A stretch of DNA of 64,000 bases from a virus: IMG/VR virus record IMGVR_UViG_3300006802_012847, positions 36,319 through 100,318 of that record. One strand, 5' to 3'. Within the stretch, counting starts at the first letter, position 1. Every line of letters begins with the position of its first letter. This document shows positions 5,218-26,829 of the stretch, piece by piece. A program made the position numbers and the translations under genes. Under the pieces are notes generated by a model. It searched no databases and was not told where the DNA came from. It worked only from the letters and a program-made list of their open reading frames with translations.

Positions 5218-5583
5218 ATTGTAGAATTTACTATTACTTTGAATACAGATGGTAAAAATATAATGACCAATATTGTGTACGATGATAAATATTGGCCTTT
5301 AGAAATGGCAAGTGGTATGGAGAAGTTTATTAGTGGACTCGCAATAAGAGTAAGTTTAATCAATATTAGCAATTTACCAAGACCAAATTGTATATGTATT
5401 GATGAAGGATTTGGTTGTGCTGATAGTGATCACTTGGGTCAGATGGGTTCATTATTTACATACTTAAAACACCAATTTGAATTCATTTGGGTTATTAGTC
5501 ATTTGGATCAATTAAGAGACATGGTTGACGAACATCTAGAAATTAAAAAAGAAAATGGATTTAGTAAGATAAATTGTGTTTGA
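5218..5583 (+). pseudogene. C-terminal ATPase half of gp46/Rad50-like protein, separated by in-frame TAG
   Basis: This is the same reading frame as the preceding gene, directly after its TAG. It encodes EFTITLNTDGKN immediately, then the ABC signature region (MASGMEKFISGLAIRVSL), Walker B (NCICIDEGFGCAD) and a switch His (WVISHLDQL). These elements are required to complete the Rad50-like ATPase whose Walker A is upstream. The first usable starts (TTG 5239, ATG 5263) come after conserved sequence begins. Options are: a disabled gene, stop-codon readthrough giving a 1,062-residue protein, separate translation of two interacting chains, or a sequencing error. The frame shows no further decay. 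Confidence 0.75.
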
Positions 5584-12718: not shown

Positions 12719-13357
12719 ATGAAAAAAGGAAAATCTAATTTAGATATTCTTCGCAATTATGTCGAAGGAACTCGACCATTTATTCAAGTTGGCTATGATG
12801 AAAATACTGCTTTGGAAAGTAGAAAAGAGGGTGAAGAATGGGAAGATGGTAGGGGTAATAGATGGAAAAAAGAAAATGGTATCAAGAAAAAAATATCGAA
12901 GAAAGCTACAATAATTAATGAAAAGAGATGTAGGATTTGTAACTGTGATACTCGTTGGGGCAATTATTTAGATGATAGAGTTTGGCCGAAAACTCAACTT
13001 TGTTATGATTGTTTTAATGAAGAAGAAACTAGAATGAAGTTAGACGGCACTTGGGAAATATTTAATAAATTAAGAGATTTAAAAAATGGAAAATCTGCTT
13101 TATTAGATCACAAAAGTAAATTTGAACAAACTAAAAAATGGTGTGAAGAAAATAAGGGAAAGCCGTTGGAGTTTGTGAATGAAGATGGCAGTATTGAGAA
13201 GTGGGAAGGCGATACTAGCGCAGAAAAAATATTAAAAGATGTTACGTCAGATTTAGGAATACTTGAGAATAGATTGACTGAAATAAATGATCTTATTGAT
13301 GGATTAGAAAAAGAATATGAGTCAAAATCTAAGAGAAATAATAAAACAAGAATATAA
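12719..13357 (+). CDS. zinc-ribbon protein preceding terminase (possible small terminase subunit)
   Basis: 212 residues. A CxxC...CxxC module (RCRICNCDTRWG ... LCYDC, residues ~64-92) probably binds zinc. The C-terminal third is a heptad-rich helical region (SDLGILENRLTEINDLIDGL) ending in a basic tail. It overlaps the terminase start by 41 nt, the place of T4 gene 16, and a coiled-coil oligomer would suit a small terminase subunit. I see no sequence signature proving it, and the zinc module is not usual for gp16. Treat the terminase link as position-based inference. Confidence 0.6.
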   Translation: MKKGKSNLDILRNYVEGTRPFIQVGYDENTALESRKEGEEWEDGRGNRWKKENGIKKKISKKATIINEKRCRICNCDTRWGNYLDDRVWPKTQLCYDCFNEEETRMKLDGTWEIFNKLRDLKNGKSALLDHKSKFEQTKKWCEENKGKPLEFVNEDGSIEKWEGDTSAEKILKDVTSDLGILENRLTEINDLIDGLEKEYESKSKRNNKTRI

Positions 13358-14165
13358 GAAGTGTGTAGAAAATCCAATATACTTCATGAAGAAGTATGTG
13401 AAGATTCAACACCCGATTAAAGGAACATGTAGTTTTGATTTATTTCCTTTTCAAGAAGAAGCATTATCTAGTTTAGTAAATAATCCACTAAACATTATCT
13501 TGAAAAGTCGTCAAATGGGTATTTCTACTCTTACAGCTGCATATAGTTTGTGGTTGATGACGTTTCACAATGATAAAAATATTCTTTGTATTAGTATTAC
13601 ACAAGAAACTGCAAAAGAAATTGTCACCAAAGTTAGATTTGCTAACGATAACCTTCCGTCATGGTTAAAAGTTCAATGTGTAGAAGATAATAGATTAAGT
13701 CTTCGTTTAAAAAATGGTTCTCAGATTAAAGCAGTATCTTCTGCTGGAACTGCTGGTCGTTCTGCCGCACTATCGCTTTTGGTAATAGATGAAGCTGCTT
13801 TTATTGATGGCATTGAAGAAATATGGTTATCTGCTCAATATACCTTATCTACTGGTGGTAGAGCAATTGTGTTGAGTACACCGAATGGAGTGGGTAATTT
13901 CTTTCATAAAACGTGGATAGGAGCAGAGTCTGGCGATAATGGATTTAAAACAATAAGACTTCCGTGGCATTTACATCCAGAACGAGATCAAGCATGGCGT
14001 GATAGACAAACAGAATTATCTGGTGTAAAAGGCGCGGCACAGGAGTGTGATTGTATATGGGGAGAATCTGTCGTCCGAGTTAAAGATAAAGATACGAATG
14101 AAGAATTTACAATTTCTTTAAAAGATTTATATAATTCGGGGTATTGTATAATTAATAATATTTAA
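13317..14165 (+). CDS. terL: terminase large subunit, N-terminal ATPase part fused to N-intein
   Basis: 282 residues. Residues 1-245 are the TerL packaging ATPase: FPFQEEAL adenine motif, LKSRQMGIST (62-71) in the Walker A position (the phage Q-M-G-x-S-T variant), LLVIDEAAF (154-162) Walker B and LSTPN (186-190) coupling motif. The extein stops at AAQECD, between ATPase and nuclease domains. Cys246 then starts a 37-residue N-intein (CIWGESVV...) that runs to the stop codon. The nuclease half is in a separate gene at 14212 behind a C-intein. Protein trans-splicing is expected to join 245 + 284 residues into a 529-residue TerL. Confidence 0.92.
   Translation: MSQNLREIIKQEYKKCVENPIYFMKKYVKIQHPIKGTCSFDLFPFQEEALSSLVNNPLNIILKSRQMGISTLTAAYSLWLMTFHNDKNILCISITQETAKEIVTKVRFANDNLPSWLKVQCVEDNRLSLRLKNGSQIKAVSSAGTAGRSAALSLLVIDEAAFIDGIEEIWLSAQYTLSTGGRAIVLSTPNGVGNFFHKTWIGAESGDNGFKTIRLPWHLHPERDQAWRDRQTELSGVKGAAQECDCIWGESVVRVKDKDTNEEFTISLKDLYNSGYCIINNI
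14052..14162 (+). other. N-intein (37 residues) of split TerL intein
   Basis: Residues 246-282 of the upstream TerL gene. It begins with the nucleophilic Cys of block A (CIWGESVVRV), has a beta-rich short segment with EEFTISLKDLYNSG, and ends at the TAA. The very short N-piece matches the atypically split AceL-TerL/VidaL architecture known from metagenomic terminases. Confidence 0.9.
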
Positions 14166-14211
14166 TTTTTTTAAAAATACTTATATAATTTTGATATTAG
14201 AATAAAATATA

Positions 14212-14544
14212 ATGGAATTTAAATTAAATAAAAATTTAGAGATACTTACCCCAACTGGATATAGAAATTTCCACGGTATTCGTAAATTAACAAAAGATGT
14301 TTGTTTTGAAATAAAATTTAATAATAATAAAAAATTAAAATGTTCAGAAACACATGTTTTTATCAGTGATAACAAAGAAATAAAAGCAAATGAGTTAACC
14401 GTAAAATCTTCAATTGACGGTAAAAATGGAGAATCTGTAATTGTTACAAGTATTAAAAAAATACAAGAAACTATAGATCTTTATGATATTGTAGAGGTAG
14501 ATAATGGTAATGTGTTTATTGTAGATGATATAGTTTCACACAAT
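14212..14544 (+). other. C-intein (111 residues) of split TerL intein
   Basis: Starts with its own ATG, opening MEFKLNKNLEILTPTGYRNF, and closes with DDIVSHN/C. The His-Asn end and Cys +1 are canonical. Opening and layout resemble the C-inteins of the AceL-TerL family. Confidence 0.9.
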
Positions 14545-15399
14545 TGTGACTTCTCAACTTCTGGTAATCAAGTTGTATCTGTAGAAACATTAGAATATTA
14601 TAAAGCTACGTTTGTTGTTGATCCTATTGAGAAAAGAGGAGCAGGCGGTGATTTTTGGATATGGGAGAGACCCGATTATAGTAAAAACTATATTATAAGT
14701 GCTGACTGCGCTCGTGGTGATAGTAGTGACTATAGTGCATTTCAAATATTCGATGTTGAAAGTATGGAACAAGTGGGTGAATACAAAGGTCAAATTACCA
14801 CTAAAGATTATGGCAATATGTTAGTTGCGGTGGCCACAGAATATAATAACGCATTGTTAGTTGTAGAAAATAACAACATAGGATGGGCTACTCTCCAACA
14901 AATAATTGATAGAGATTATAAAAATACTTTCTATAGTACTCCAGATTTAAATATAATTGATGTTGAACACAGTTATACTAATAAACTCAGTCGTCAAGAT
15001 AAAAAGTTAATAGCTGGATTTACAACTACAAATAAAAATAGACCTTTGATTATCAGTAATATGGAATCGTGTTTTAGAGATAAATCTATTACAATTAAGT
15101 CTGTTAGATTATATGAAGAATTGAATGTTTTTATTTGGCATGGAGCTAAAGCAGAAGCTATGAGAGGATATAACGATGACTTAGTAATGTCCTTAAGTAT
15201 AGGCTTGTGGATTCGTGATACAGCGCTTAAACTAAGAAATGAACAAATAAGTTATACTAAGAATATGTTAAGCGGAATTAAAAAAGTAACTAGTGTAGAA
15301 ACAAGACCAGGGCCGCAAAATAAGATATTAGCATCTCCAGAAGAGTCATGGGCTATGGAAGTTAATGGGAAAAAAGAAAACTTAAACTGGTTATTGTAA
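14212..15399 (+). CDS. terL: C-intein fused to terminase large subunit C-terminal nuclease part
   Basis: 395 residues. Residues 1-111 are the C-intein, with blocks B (KCSETHVF), F (LYDIVEVDNGN) and G (VSHN), ending at Asn111 with +1 Cys112. Residues 112-395 are the TerL RNase H-fold nuclease: SADCARGDSSDYSAF with the first catalytic Asp, LLVVENNN and a late RGYNDDLVMSLSIG acidic motif. It starts 46 nt after the stop of the ATPase half and in another frame (13317 and 14212 differ by one). No endonuclease domain remains in the intein. Expected to trans-splice with the upstream product. Confidence 0.92.
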   Translation: MEFKLNKNLEILTPTGYRNFHGIRKLTKDVCFEIKFNNNKKLKCSETHVFISDNKEIKANELTVKSSIDGKNGESVIVTSIKKIQETIDLYDIVEVDNGNVFIVDDIVSHNCDFSTSGNQVVSVETLEYYKATFVVDPIEKRGAGGDFWIWERPDYSKNYIISADCARGDSSDYSAFQIFDVESMEQVGEYKGQITTKDYGNMLVAVATEYNNALLVVENNNIGWATLQQIIDRDYKNTFYSTPDLNIIDVEHSYTNKLSRQDKKLIAGFTTTNKNRPLIISNMESCFRDKSITIKSVRLYEELNVFIWHGAKAEAMRGYNDDLVMSLSIGLWIRDTALKLRNEQISYTKNMLSGIKKVTSVETRPGPQNKILASPEESWAMEVNGKKENLNWLL

Positions 15400-15423: not shown

Positions 15424-18400
15424 ATGGACGATAAATCATTTCAAGAATTAAAAAACAGATCATTATATGCTAAATTAAAAAGATTATTTAGCAATGATGT
15501 AGTTGTTCGAAATGTTGGTGGTAAAAAATTAAAAGTAATTGATACCGATGAAGTTTTTTATGCAACGGATCGTAATAGTTTAAGAGACAGATTTAATCGT
15601 CTAAGAACTACATCATATAATCAATATACCAGAGATTATAATTTATCCTATCAAAGTTCCCGTGTAGAACTATTTCGTGATTATGATTGCGTTGGACCAG
15701 ATACAGTAGTACCACTACCCGATGGAACTTTTCCCACGATCGCGGAACTTGCTGAAAAATATAAAGATAAACCTCAAGAAAGATTTTATGTATTTTCATA
15801 TGATCATGAAACAGACAGTATAAAATTAGGTAAAGCATATCATCCTCGTAAAAAGAAAGGAAAACGTCAAGGATATAAAGTAACATTTGATAATGGTCAA
15901 TATGTCATTGCCAGTCTTAAACATCCATTTATGATGCGAGATGGAACATATAAACGAACATTTGAACTTAGAGTTGGTGATTCTATAATGCCATTTTATC
16001 AAAGAGAATACGGATATAAAAAACACGGGTTTAAAAGATATCGTAGATTGTATAATTTTTCAAAAGGATGGCAATCAGAACATAAAATTGTCGCTGAACA
16101 ATTTGATAGACCTCTTAAAAAAGGAGAGGTTGTACATCATATCAATATAAATGGCGCTGATAATAGTCCAGAAAATCTTTTGATAATGGATTGGAAAGAA
16201 CACAAAAAATTTCATTCTGAATATAATAAAAATGCGTTATGGGGTAAAGAAAATTATGAGAAACAACTAAATAAGTTGAGATCACATCCGAATTATATTA
16301 ATAGAAATATTCATCATTGGAATGGGGAAAGAAAGGGAGAAAATAATCCATTTTATGGAAAAATACATACCGATGAATCAAATAAACAGAGATCAGATAC
16401 TTTAAAGGAAGTATTTAAAAATAGAAATCAAAATGGAAATAAAAATCCAAAATATAGAGATGATATAACTTTTGATAATGTTAAAGAAAAAGCATACGAA
16501 TATTATAAAGAATATTCTAAAATTAATCTTTGGGATTTTATTAAACATATACATTGTGATCACTCCACTCTTCAAAATCGTTTAAAAACAGAAGGACATG
16601 ATTGGAAATCATTCAAACAAGATGTTGAAACAACATTGAATCATAAAATTATTTCAATAGAACACATTGGCGAAGTTGATGTATACGATGTAACAGTTGA
16701 AAAATATGAAAATTTTGCAACAGATAGTTGTTTCGTCTCGAATACAATGGATATGGACCCAATTCTTGCTGCAGCATTAGACATATATGCAGATGAATGT
16801 ACTACTAGAAATGAAATGGGCGAAGTAATCACTGTTAGAAGCACTAATGATGATGTTAAATTAGTATTAAACAATTTATTCTATGACATTTTAAACATTG
16901 AATTCAACTTATGGTCGTGGATTCGTAGTTTAGTTAAATATGGTGATTTTTATTTAAGACTTTATATAAGTCCAGAGTATGGGGTTTATATGGTAGAACC
17001 ACTAAGTACTTACTATGTCACCCGTGTAGAAAATGCTCATTTAACTAATAAAAATTTTGTAAAGTTCCAAGTTAATATGCCTTATGGTAATAAGATTGAA
17101 GACCTCGAAAATTACCAAATGGCACACTTTAGACTACTAAGTGATAGTAACTTTCTGCCATACGGTAAAAGTATGTTAGAAGGCGCAAGACGTGTCTGGA
17201 AACAATTAAGTTTGATGGAGGATGCAATGTTGATTCATCGTATCATGCGTGCTCCAGAAAAACGTATTTTCAAAGTAGATATTGGTAACATCCCACCAAA
17301 TGAAGTGGACAATCACATGGAGAGAATCATTAGTCAAATGAAAAAAACTCCATATCTAGATCAAAATACTGGTGATTATAATCTTCGATTTAATTTACAA
17401 AACATGGTCGAAGACTTTTTCTTACCAGTTCGTGGTAGTGATAGTGGTACTGCTATAGATAATTTGCCAGGTCTAGAGTGGACAGGTACAGATGATATCG
17501 AATATCTACGTAATAAAATGATGGCTGCTCTTAAAATACCTAAAGCATTTTTGGGTTATGATGAAACTGTAAGCGGTAAAGCTACATTAGCAGCTGAAGA
17601 TATTCGTTTTGCTAGAACAATTCAAAGACTCCAAAGAATCGTTGTTAGTGAATTAAATAAAATAGCAGTAGTTCATTTATATAGTCAAGGATATCGTGAT
17701 GAGGCTCTTGTTGATTTTAGTTTAGAATTGACAAATCCATCTACAATCTTTGAAAAAGAAAAACTCGATGTTTGGAAAAGTAAAGTTGAAGTTAGTGAAG
17801 CTATGCAGCAAGAAAAACTGTTTAGTAAGAAATGGATTTACGAAAATGTATTTGGTATGTCTGACCAAGACATGATTACAATGCAAAAACAACTGGTTGA
17901 TGATGCTAAAGGAATGTATCGATTTAAACAGATCGAAGAAGAAGGTGATGATCCAGCATTAGCATTTTTAAAATCTAAAGACGAAGAAGGCGGAGAAGGA
18001 GCACCAGAAGAAGGTGGGGAAGAAGGGGACTTAGGAGATCTTGCTGGTGGTACTGGCGAAGAAACGCCTGAAGGTGGAGCCGAAACTGAACCAGCAGCTG
18101 GGGGTGGTGGCGAAGAAGAAACACCTACATTAACTGAAAAAACGAAATTGACTGCTCATGAACGTGAAAAAGCAGCAAAAGAAAAAGAAAAAAATCGGGA
18201 TAGAGACCAAACTGGAAGAAAAAAAGCTAATGATTATAGATTTGGCGAAGATCCATTAGGTTCTCTGGAATTAAATTCGGAACCTGATAGAAGTGTATCT
18301 CATAAATATAAAGGTAGATCTCCTTTATCGCTTGAGGGATTATCTTCTATATTAGATGAACTAGAACAACATAAATCTATGTTGAATGAGACCAAAGAAA

Positions 18401-18444
18401 AATCATCAGGGTCTTACATGGATGAAATAAATATTAAAGAATAA
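15424..18444 (+). CDS. portal vertex protein (T4 gp20-like) containing an intein
   Basis: 1,006 residues, of which 89-440 are an intein, leaving a 654-residue portal. The extein matches T4-like portals: TMDMDPILAAALDIYADECT, then FYLRLYISPEYGVY, LPYGKSMLEGARRVWKQLSLMEDAMLIHRI, RAPEKRIFKVDIGNIPPNEV and PKAFLGYDETVSGKATLA. The C-terminal ~170 residues include a low-complexity Glu/Gly stretch (~residues 855-900) and a charged tail. It forms the dodecameric DNA gate on which the terminase docks and follows terL directly. An ACTTATATATAAG-like element lies just upstream. Confidence 0.95.
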   Translation: MDDKSFQELKNRSLYAKLKRLFSNDVVVRNVGGKKLKVIDTDEVFYATDRNSLRDRFNRLRTTSYNQYTRDYNLSYQSSRVELFRDYDCVGPDTVVPLPDGTFPTIAELAEKYKDKPQERFYVFSYDHETDSIKLGKAYHPRKKKGKRQGYKVTFDNGQYVIASLKHPFMMRDGTYKRTFELRVGDSIMPFYQREYGYKKHGFKRYRRLYNFSKGWQSEHKIVAEQFDRPLKKGEVVHHININGADNSPENLLIMDWKEHKKFHSEYNKNALWGKENYEKQLNKLRSHPNYINRNIHHWNGERKGENNPFYGKIHTDESNKQRSDTLKEVFKNRNQNGNKNPKYRDDITFDNVKEKAYEYYKEYSKINLWDFIKHIHCDHSTLQNRLKTEGHDWKSFKQDVETTLNHKIISIEHIGEVDVYDVTVEKYENFATDSCFVSNTMDMDPILAAALDIYADECTTRNEMGEVITVRSTNDDVKLVLNNLFYDILNIEFNLWSWIRSLVKYGDFYLRLYISPEYGVYMVEPLSTYYVTRVENAHLTNKNFVKFQVNMPYGNKIEDLENYQMAHFRLLSDSNFLPYGKSMLEGARRVWKQLSLMEDAMLIHRIMRAPEKRIFKVDIGNIPPNEVDNHMERIISQMKKTPYLDQNTGDYNLRFNLQNMVEDFFLPVRGSDSGTAIDNLPGLEWTGTDDIEYLRNKMMAALKIPKAFLGYDETVSGKATLAAEDIRFARTIQRLQRIVVSELNKIAVVHLYSQGYRDEALVDFSLELTNPSTIFEKEKLDVWKSKVEVSEAMQQEKLFSKKWIYENVFGMSDQDMITMQKQLVDDAKGMYRFKQIEEEGDDPALAFLKSKDEEGGEGAPEEGGEEGDLGDLAGGTGEETPEGGAETEPAAGGGGEEETPTLTEKTKLTAHEREKAAKEKEKNRDRDQTGRKKANDYRFGEDPLGSLELNSEPDRSVSHKYKGRSPLSLEGLSSILDELEQHKSMLNETKEKSSGSYMDEINIKE
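15688..16743 (+). mobile_element. portal intein with HNH homing endonuclease
   Basis: 352 residues, from Cys89 (block A, CVGPDTVVPLPDGTFPTIAE) to Asn440 (block G, SCFVSN) with +1 Thr441. The N-terminal splicing half includes LKHPFMMRDGTY (block B region). The middle has an HNH nuclease at residues 238-264 (HHININGADNSPENL ... EHKKFH), followed by a NUMOD3-like DNA-binding repeat (GENNPFYGKIHTDES) and a helix-turn-helix-like end. The penultimate residue is Ser instead of the usual His. As a full-length splicing and homing element it is probably still mobile. Confidence 0.92.
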
Positions 18445-26052: not shown

Positions 26053-26829
26053 TTAAAAAAACGTATTAGTTGATTCTACGAGTATTTCATAAACTTCTTC
26101 TTTAAACGATGTATTTTTCGGATAAGGGAGAAGTTTATGTTTTAATGACTTAGTAAGTTTTTTGTTTTCAATTTTATTGCTTATAAATTTAATGTAACGA
26201 TGCTTACCACTTTCACGTTTTCTCCAAAAAGTTTTTCCAATTCTTTCTTTTAGTTTGTCTACACTGTGCGTTTTCCATCTAGCATACACACTTCTACTAT
26301 GTATCCATTCATAACTTGGAGGACCAATTAAACTAACACTATAATTTGGCATTAGAGCTACATCTACATAATTATCTCCTTGATATAAAAATCCAGTTGC
26401 TTGATATATAGTTCCAGTGTGACCTGCTTCACTATCAGCGTAACTTAGAATACATTTAATTCTTGGAAATTCTATATTCAATTGTCTGAAACTTTCTGCT
26501 ATACAAAAACTCTCCATATTTTTTCCATATCCATCTTCTATCCATAAACGTGTCAATTCAAACACGTTTTCGTTTTTTAAAAGAGGACTTATACTGGTAC
26601 TTGCATTTCTTCCAACTGCATTTCCATAAACCATCACACCAATTAATTTGTATTCATCGGTATTGAAAAAATCATTATTGATGTCATCTTTATAATAAAC
26701 TCCGTATGCTACAGTGCAACTTGTCCATTTATGTGAATAATGATGTTTTTCAATCAAATTTCGTGCTACGGACTTATTGATAGATTTCAAATGAATTAAA
26801 TTTGTATCACAATATTCAGAGTTTTTCAC
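26053..26829 (-). CDS. Mom-like DNA adenine modification protein (GNAT-fold)
   Basis: 258 residues, minus strand. The pattern is that of the Mom family: NLIEKHHYSHKW, LIGVMVYGNAVGRN, ELTRLWIEDGYGKNMESF, then LSYADSEAGHTGTIYQATGF. In phage Mu, Mom modifies adenines to N6-methylcarbamoyl-type adducts, which protects DNA from host restriction. The C-terminal ~90 residues are basic (RWKTHSVDKLKERIGKTFWR) and could bind DNA. Flanking genes are convergent or divergent, so it is a single accessory gene. Assignment is by motif pattern; activity is inferred from the family. Confidence 0.75.
   Translation of the reverse strand: MKNSEYCDTNLIHLKSINKSVARNLIEKHHYSHKWTSCTVAYGVYYKDDINNDFFNTDEYKLIGVMVYGNAVGRNASTSISPLLKNENVFELTRLWIEDGYGKNMESFCIAESFRQLNIEFPRIKCILSYADSEAGHTGTIYQATGFLYQGDNYVDVALMPNYSVSLIGPPSYEWIHSRSVYARWKTHSVDKLKERIGKTFWRKRESGKHRYIKFISNKIENKKLTKSLKHKLLPYPKNTSFKEEVYEILVESTNTFF

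Follow-up and report, generated by a model that had tools for sequence, protein, structure and literature searches.

A phage terminase encoded in two genes with an atypically split intein at their junction

Introduction

How does a phage build its packaging motor when the large terminase subunit (TerL), which combines an ATPase with a nuclease, is encoded in two separate genes? This question is raised by the 64,000-nucleotide stretch analysed here (the window), part of a 100,318-bp linear, metagenomic IMG/VR record (IMGVR_UViG_3300006802_012847, hereafter G000), in which each of two adjacent terminase genes carries one part of an intein at its broken end. Homology, predicted fold, an empty site, conservation and selection strongly support the view that TerL is divided between two genes and rejoined through an atypically split intein. 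Inteins of this class are in use as protein-labelling tools, and one is now placed in a natural genome. The main interest of the locus lies in the apparently recent, footprinted arrival of the element and in the graded series of forms among its relatives. A pair of phages that are alike apart from the element and the flanks converted with it, together with these graded relatives, makes two questions directly testable: how split inteins originate and are maintained, and whether protein trans-splicing can be a requirement for the packaging motor of a phage.

A terminase in two genes

Gene 1 (13317..14165, plus strand, as are all features of this locus; 282 amino acids (aa)) is an open reading frame (ORF) encoding the TerL ATPase half and an N-intein; it matches Pfam Terminase_6N (E = 1.7e-12) and the PHROG terminase large subunit (E = 7.7e-40). 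Its N-extein of 245 aa (13317..14051) ends in QECD and is 87–98% identical to the uninterrupted TerL of four related phages (L002, L003, L005 and L007). The N-intein that follows (14052..14162), delimited by alignment of N-pieces, has 37 aa, starts with Cys1 (Cys246 of gene 1) and ends just past the helix alpha-1 segment. After an intergenic gap of 46 nucleotides (nt) without an endonuclease ORF (14166..14211), gene 2 (14212..15399; 395 aa) encodes a C-intein and the TerL nuclease half, the latter matching the T4 gp17 nuclease (E ~1e-8). Alignment and an AlphaFold model place the C-intein at 111 aa (M1–N111; 14212..14544), with a block-B His, a penultimate His and a terminal Asn, the last two within its terminal SHN. 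The C-extein of 284 aa (14545..15396; PHROG terminase, E = 4e-14) opens with the +1 Cys (Cys112 of gene 2) and contains the nuclease domain. An earlier note, made from the DNA letters and their ORFs, had described a TerL split in two genes with a 37-residue N-intein from Cys246 and a 111-residue C-intein ending SHN/C, and the ORFs agree with it to the residue.

Joined at the intein borders, the two exteins would give a TerL of 529 aa (245 + 284). Its Walker A (SRQMGIST), Walker B (VIDEAAF) and STP motifs and its nuclease acidic residues, which alignment to T4 gp17 places in ADCARG, VVENNNIG and NDDLVMSL, are all intact and divided between gene 1 and gene 2. The two genes lie in different frames, a stop at 14203 stands in the gene 2 frame 5′ of the gene 2 ATG, and the gap contains stops in all three frames. 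One indel or frameshift therefore cannot join them, which bears out the earlier reading of two separate genes rather than one frameshifted gene.

Kinship with known split inteins

The closest structural reference is Cat (PDB 6dsl; CatN is 6dsl_A and CatC is 6dsl_B), an engineered consensus of AceL-TerL and GOS-TerL whose structure is solved. The search of the two pieces against known inteins that the earlier note had proposed found this element on both sides: the window C-piece matches CatC at E = 1.2e-15 with about 38% identity (hhalign probability 99.6%), and the N-piece profile matches CatN at E = 0.0023. The CatN extein EFE aligns with the ECD of the window QECD, and the insertion site, at the boundary between the TerL ATPase and nuclease, is therefore homologous. 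The AlphaFold model of the window C-piece (predicted local distance difference test (pLDDT) 90) has Cat 6dsl as its top PDB match, with template modelling (TM) scores of 0.81 and 0.78. L137, a natural homologue with a single ORF at this site, is predicted to form a full intein fold (pLDDT 92); it resembles many inteins structurally and narrowly reaches both NCBIfam intein cut-offs. Its model has a helix at residues 27–33 and then a loop, and the window split falls after this helix alpha-1, that is, at S2, the position of the AceL-TerL/GOS-TerL type.

Split inteins of the S2 kind include AceL-TerL and GOS-TerL, and VidaL is split at S1 (PMC13014065). Published lengths of the N- and C-pieces are 37 and 115 aa for GOS-TerL, 25 and 104 aa for AceL-TerL and 30 and 104 aa for Cat (PMC11766414), ranges that include the 37 and 111 aa of the window. 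The window intein further shares with these three its host protein, its extein site, the split after alpha-1 and Cys+1. It differs from them in its N-extein end (QECD), in having a known phage neighbourhood and in lacking a nuclease ORF between the halves, and from GOS-TerL in having Cys1 in place of Ser1. VidaL too is an intein split in nature, and its N-piece is short and of the Cys type, but its split falls after beta-2 and leaves an N-piece of 16 aa, and the window C-piece is structurally nearer to Cat (TM 0.81) than to VidaL (TM 0.68). A VidaL-type (S1) assignment is ruled out by the 37-aa N-piece, which includes the helix alpha-1 segment, as opposed to about 16 aa ending at beta-2. Of the joint AceL-TerL/VidaL type named in the earlier note, the AceL-TerL part thus stands and the VidaL part falls. 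The ‘fractured genes’ of Dassa et al. in 2009 reportedly consist of an N-intein gene, a free-standing endonuclease ORF and a C-intein gene. Relatives of the window element such as L006, L016 and L021 have this order with a free-standing nuclease-like ORF, whereas the window has only its 46-nt gap. The intein type is thus already known, and the window copy is new to it and endonuclease-less.

Empty site and recent arrival

The TerL of L002 is uninterrupted and reads QECDCDFS where the window has QECD, the intein and CDFS, which makes it an exact empty site; the N-extein is 98% and the C-extein 100% identical between the two. The window and L002 differ at 44 nucleotides over about 2.2 kb, and 39 of these 44 lie within 417 bp round the insertion, between −252 and +165 (13799..14709 in the window), with the other 5 spread over 1,771 bp (Fisher p = 8e-24). 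Identity between the window and L003, another phage with an empty site, is 95% over the 240 bp left of the insertion, compared with 80% farther upstream. L002 there stays 87.5% identical to L003, and the window and L002 are each about 86% identical to L005; the window, and not L002, is therefore the recombinant. The right flank is patchy, L003-like at +15 and from +123 to +144 and L002-like between. Homing or gene conversion in the recent past, with an L003-like donor, would leave such a cluster of differences round the site.

Conservation, proposed mechanism and alternatives

The splicing residues of the window intein are all intact, as the earlier note had claimed, and the catalytic residues, including His48 of the C-intein and S-H-N|C, are invariant in 26 diverged aligned sequences. 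The ratio of nonsynonymous to synonymous substitution rates (dN/dS) of the intein is 0.03–0.49 in every pair of relatives that allowed its calculation. Some of these pairs have nuclease-less members; in one of them (L138/L148) it is 0.04 for the C-intein. Both intein halves are thus under purifying selection in relatives.

We consider the following account highly probable as a whole. TerL would be made as two polypeptides whose 37-aa N-intein and 111-aa C-intein associate into a HINT fold of the AceL/GOS-TerL type. Class-1 trans-splicing would then proceed through an acyl shift at Cys1, transthioesterification to Cys112 of gene 2 and cyclisation of Asn111, joining ...QECD to CDFS... in the 529-aa TerL, and packaging may depend on this reaction. 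The lineage probably goes back to a ‘fractured gene’, in which a free-standing putative homing endonuclease separated the two halves of a split intein. The window copy would have entered an intein-free lineage recently, through recombination or homing that also converted the flanks, and its endonuclease ORF may have been deleted before or after that arrival.

Several points weigh against this account. The window intein is at most about 53% identical to all relatives other than L082, a second contig with the same split, and the dN/dS figures are those of relatives' pairs. Database matches support the N-piece on its own only weakly, because it is short. The assembly of the two window chains into a HINT fold is predicted from the model of the C-piece and from a homologue, and splicing activity is likewise predicted from the residues.

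The best-surviving alternative, which we regard as improbable, holds that the two polypeptides form a working terminase non-covalently and unspliced, with the intein parts as inert tails. Split phage enzymes can be active as separate polypeptides, as in NrdA of phage Aeh1 (PMC2988022), but inert tails would decay, so the invariant catalytic residues and the purifying selection on relatives' halves weigh against it. Less probable still is that the intein is defective here and TerL is supplied by a co-infecting phage or a second terL. The copy is young in this lineage and the 100-kb record is possibly incomplete, which leave some room for this view; against it, the splicing residues are all intact and no second copy of gene 2 was found in G000. 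The remaining two alternatives we judge extremely unlikely. Although G000 is a linear metagenomic record, a single TerL gene broken by an assembly or sequencing error is contradicted by L082 (IMGVR 3300025889_000382), which has the identical split at 99.98% identity to the window over 12,357 bp, by the dozens of relatives that share the split architecture, and by the gap, in which no single indel restores the ORF. RNA-level splicing by a group I or II intron has a parallel in the spliced TerL transcript of phage ICP1 (PMC10448857), but the inserted sequence encodes intein domains with a matching fold, and Rfam gave no match in the window, nor any at E <= 1 in the TerL locus.

Relatives at the TerL site

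Scans with alignments of the C-intein and of the nuclease-like ORF yielded 48 distinct loci, window included, with both halves visible. Of these, 29 have a nuclease-like ORF of 200 aa or more between the halves, and 6 a remnant of one (L104 being a weak match); 10 have none (L158 being diverged and uncertain), and in 3 the intein is spanned by a single ORF. On the intein tree, nuclease-less and single-ORF forms occupy scattered positions, requiring at least 10 and 3 changes, respectively. The approximately unbiased test (p-AU) rejects a grouping of all forms without a full nuclease ORF (p-AU = 7e-56) as well as a grouping of the single-ORF forms (p-AU = 2e-4). The deep branches are weakly supported, and the direction of change is therefore read mainly from pairs.

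One such case is L096, an element of the L006 type in which the nuclease ORF has been deleted between TAAAAATT repeats. In another, the inserts of L006 and L094 are 96.8% identical and the exteins 84–85%, which is a recent spread of the nuclease-bearing element. Single-ORF inteins occupy the split-intein site in L160 (and L162), L137 and L125. The single ORF of L160 retains QEPEYLL, and in its split relatives L159, L186 and L195 the N-piece ends in QECDYL or QECHYL followed by a stop; this tail suggests a split intein re-fused into one ORF. In a separate comparison of the TerL regions of L108 and L115, synonymous differences number 26/73 in the C-intein and 17/164 and 14/187 in the exteins, a pattern that would fit an exchange of the intein among closely related phages.

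The relatives display every stage of invasion, decay and perhaps re-fusion of such elements. Only tentatively, and at less than even confidence, do we arrange them as a life cycle, in which a fractured gene, its putative homing endonuclease regulating its own expression through a 15-nt copy of its homing site (described below), would lose that endonuclease, as in the window, and would occasionally re-fuse in cis, some TerL proteins being made from three genes with two split inteins. The relatives also provide about 30 new natural pairs of N- and C-inteins.

Nuclease-like ORF and a copy of the empty site

The nuclease-like ORF of relatives gave no Pfam, PHROG or PDB match above threshold. Pairs of Cys residues and a GY.LDAYD..NVVLEIDE..H block are conserved in it, and these features, its position and its association with spread make it a likely homing endonuclease. 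An EDxHD/Vsr identity found no support in our comparisons. No member of this ORF family that could mobilise the intein in trans was found elsewhere in the 100-kb record of the window phage, which is possibly incomplete.

Between the N-intein stop and the nuclease ORF, 11 diverged lineages that bear a nuclease have a non-coding 15-nt sequence copying the left half of the empty site (CAAGAATGTGATTGT). The copy lies 3′ of an AT-rich box, and in several lineages it abuts the ATG of the nuclease ORF. Copies stand at 5227–5241 in L006, 5262–5276 in L016 and 3246–3260 in L084, and also in L102, L116, L120, L126 and others. Conservation is 86% in the copy compared with 34–51% in its flanks, a contrast somewhat inflated because the 11 lineages were chosen by detection of the copy. 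By hand count, 18 of 33 loci with a nuclease ORF or remnant showed the copy, against 1 of the 12 remaining loci (Fisher p = 0.007, common descent ignored). In phage T4, I-TevI represses its own expression; the operator to which it binds is similar to its homing site and overlaps its late promoter (PMC2988022). By analogy with this operator, our leading guess is that the copy is a candidate operator of the nuclease-like ORF; alternatively, it may be a relic of insertion.

The 46-nt gap of the window holds no recognisable 15-nt copy. It keeps a TACTTATATA box (14178–14187), similar to the box 5′ of the relatives' nuclease-like ORF, and FDIRIKYN-like codons that weakly resemble the C-terminus of that ORF (p ~0.06 by shuffling). 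These traces are only suggestive of an endonuclease remnant.

Cultured relatives and other split sites

Split TerL inteins are found at the equivalent site in the cultured Aeromonas phage PX29 and Vibrio phages VP-1 and 1.244. In PX29, the GenBank record of genes 17A and 17B already notes an N-intein and a C-intein (QQEH|C ... HN|C); PX29 differs from the window in a GIY-YIG nuclease fused to its C-piece, and its C-intein is about 31% identical to that of the window. Vibrio phage VP-1 (L223, 828–4170) combines a cis intein in the TerL Walker A with the split intein at the nuclease boundary, and its split N-piece continues in frame into a long extra domain.

A second split-intein site of TerL lies directly after the Walker-B DE, in L008 (1995–5138), Escherichia coli phage kaaroe (L222, 1269–4380) and Yersinia phage TG1 (L224, 1534–4383); the ORF between the halves in L008 matches TnsA-like endonucleases. 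With PX29, VP-1, 1.244, kaaroe and TG1 all carrying relatives, the description of such inteins in the earlier note as known mainly from metagenomic fragments was too strong. Cultured relatives, such as kaaroe on E. coli K-12, offer a laboratory handle.

In L197 (1542–5885), TerL is in three pieces, as it is in L198, L199 and L200 (four samples in all, with at least ~99.5% identity across the part of TerL that they share). An N-piece split at Walker B (DE|C) is followed by a middle piece that carries both a C-intein and a further N-intein (QE|CLDGD), and then by the C-piece, with two different nuclease-like ORFs, one per gap. Judging from this arrangement, two split inteins would be needed for one TerL.

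The nearest named TerL proteins to that of the window phage are intein-free, in Microcystis phage Mel-JY01 (50%) and Flavobacterium immuto phages (46%). A search of GTDB genomes gave only a weak match, in Budvicia (28%), and therefore no host link.

Neighbouring genes

Downstream of the split TerL and separate from it, the portal gene (15424..18444) contains a cis-splicing intein of 352 aa with a NUMOD3/HNH nuclease (15688..16743, plus strand; DYD|C...SN|T), whose penultimate residue is Ser in place of His. Relatives have the corresponding empty site, DYD|TMDMDP, and the portal ORF of L004 has a second insertion at PYGK|C...HN|S. Farther along the window, on the minus strand, lies a gene for a Mom-like DNA modification protein (26053–26829; PHROG 1384, E = 5e-46).
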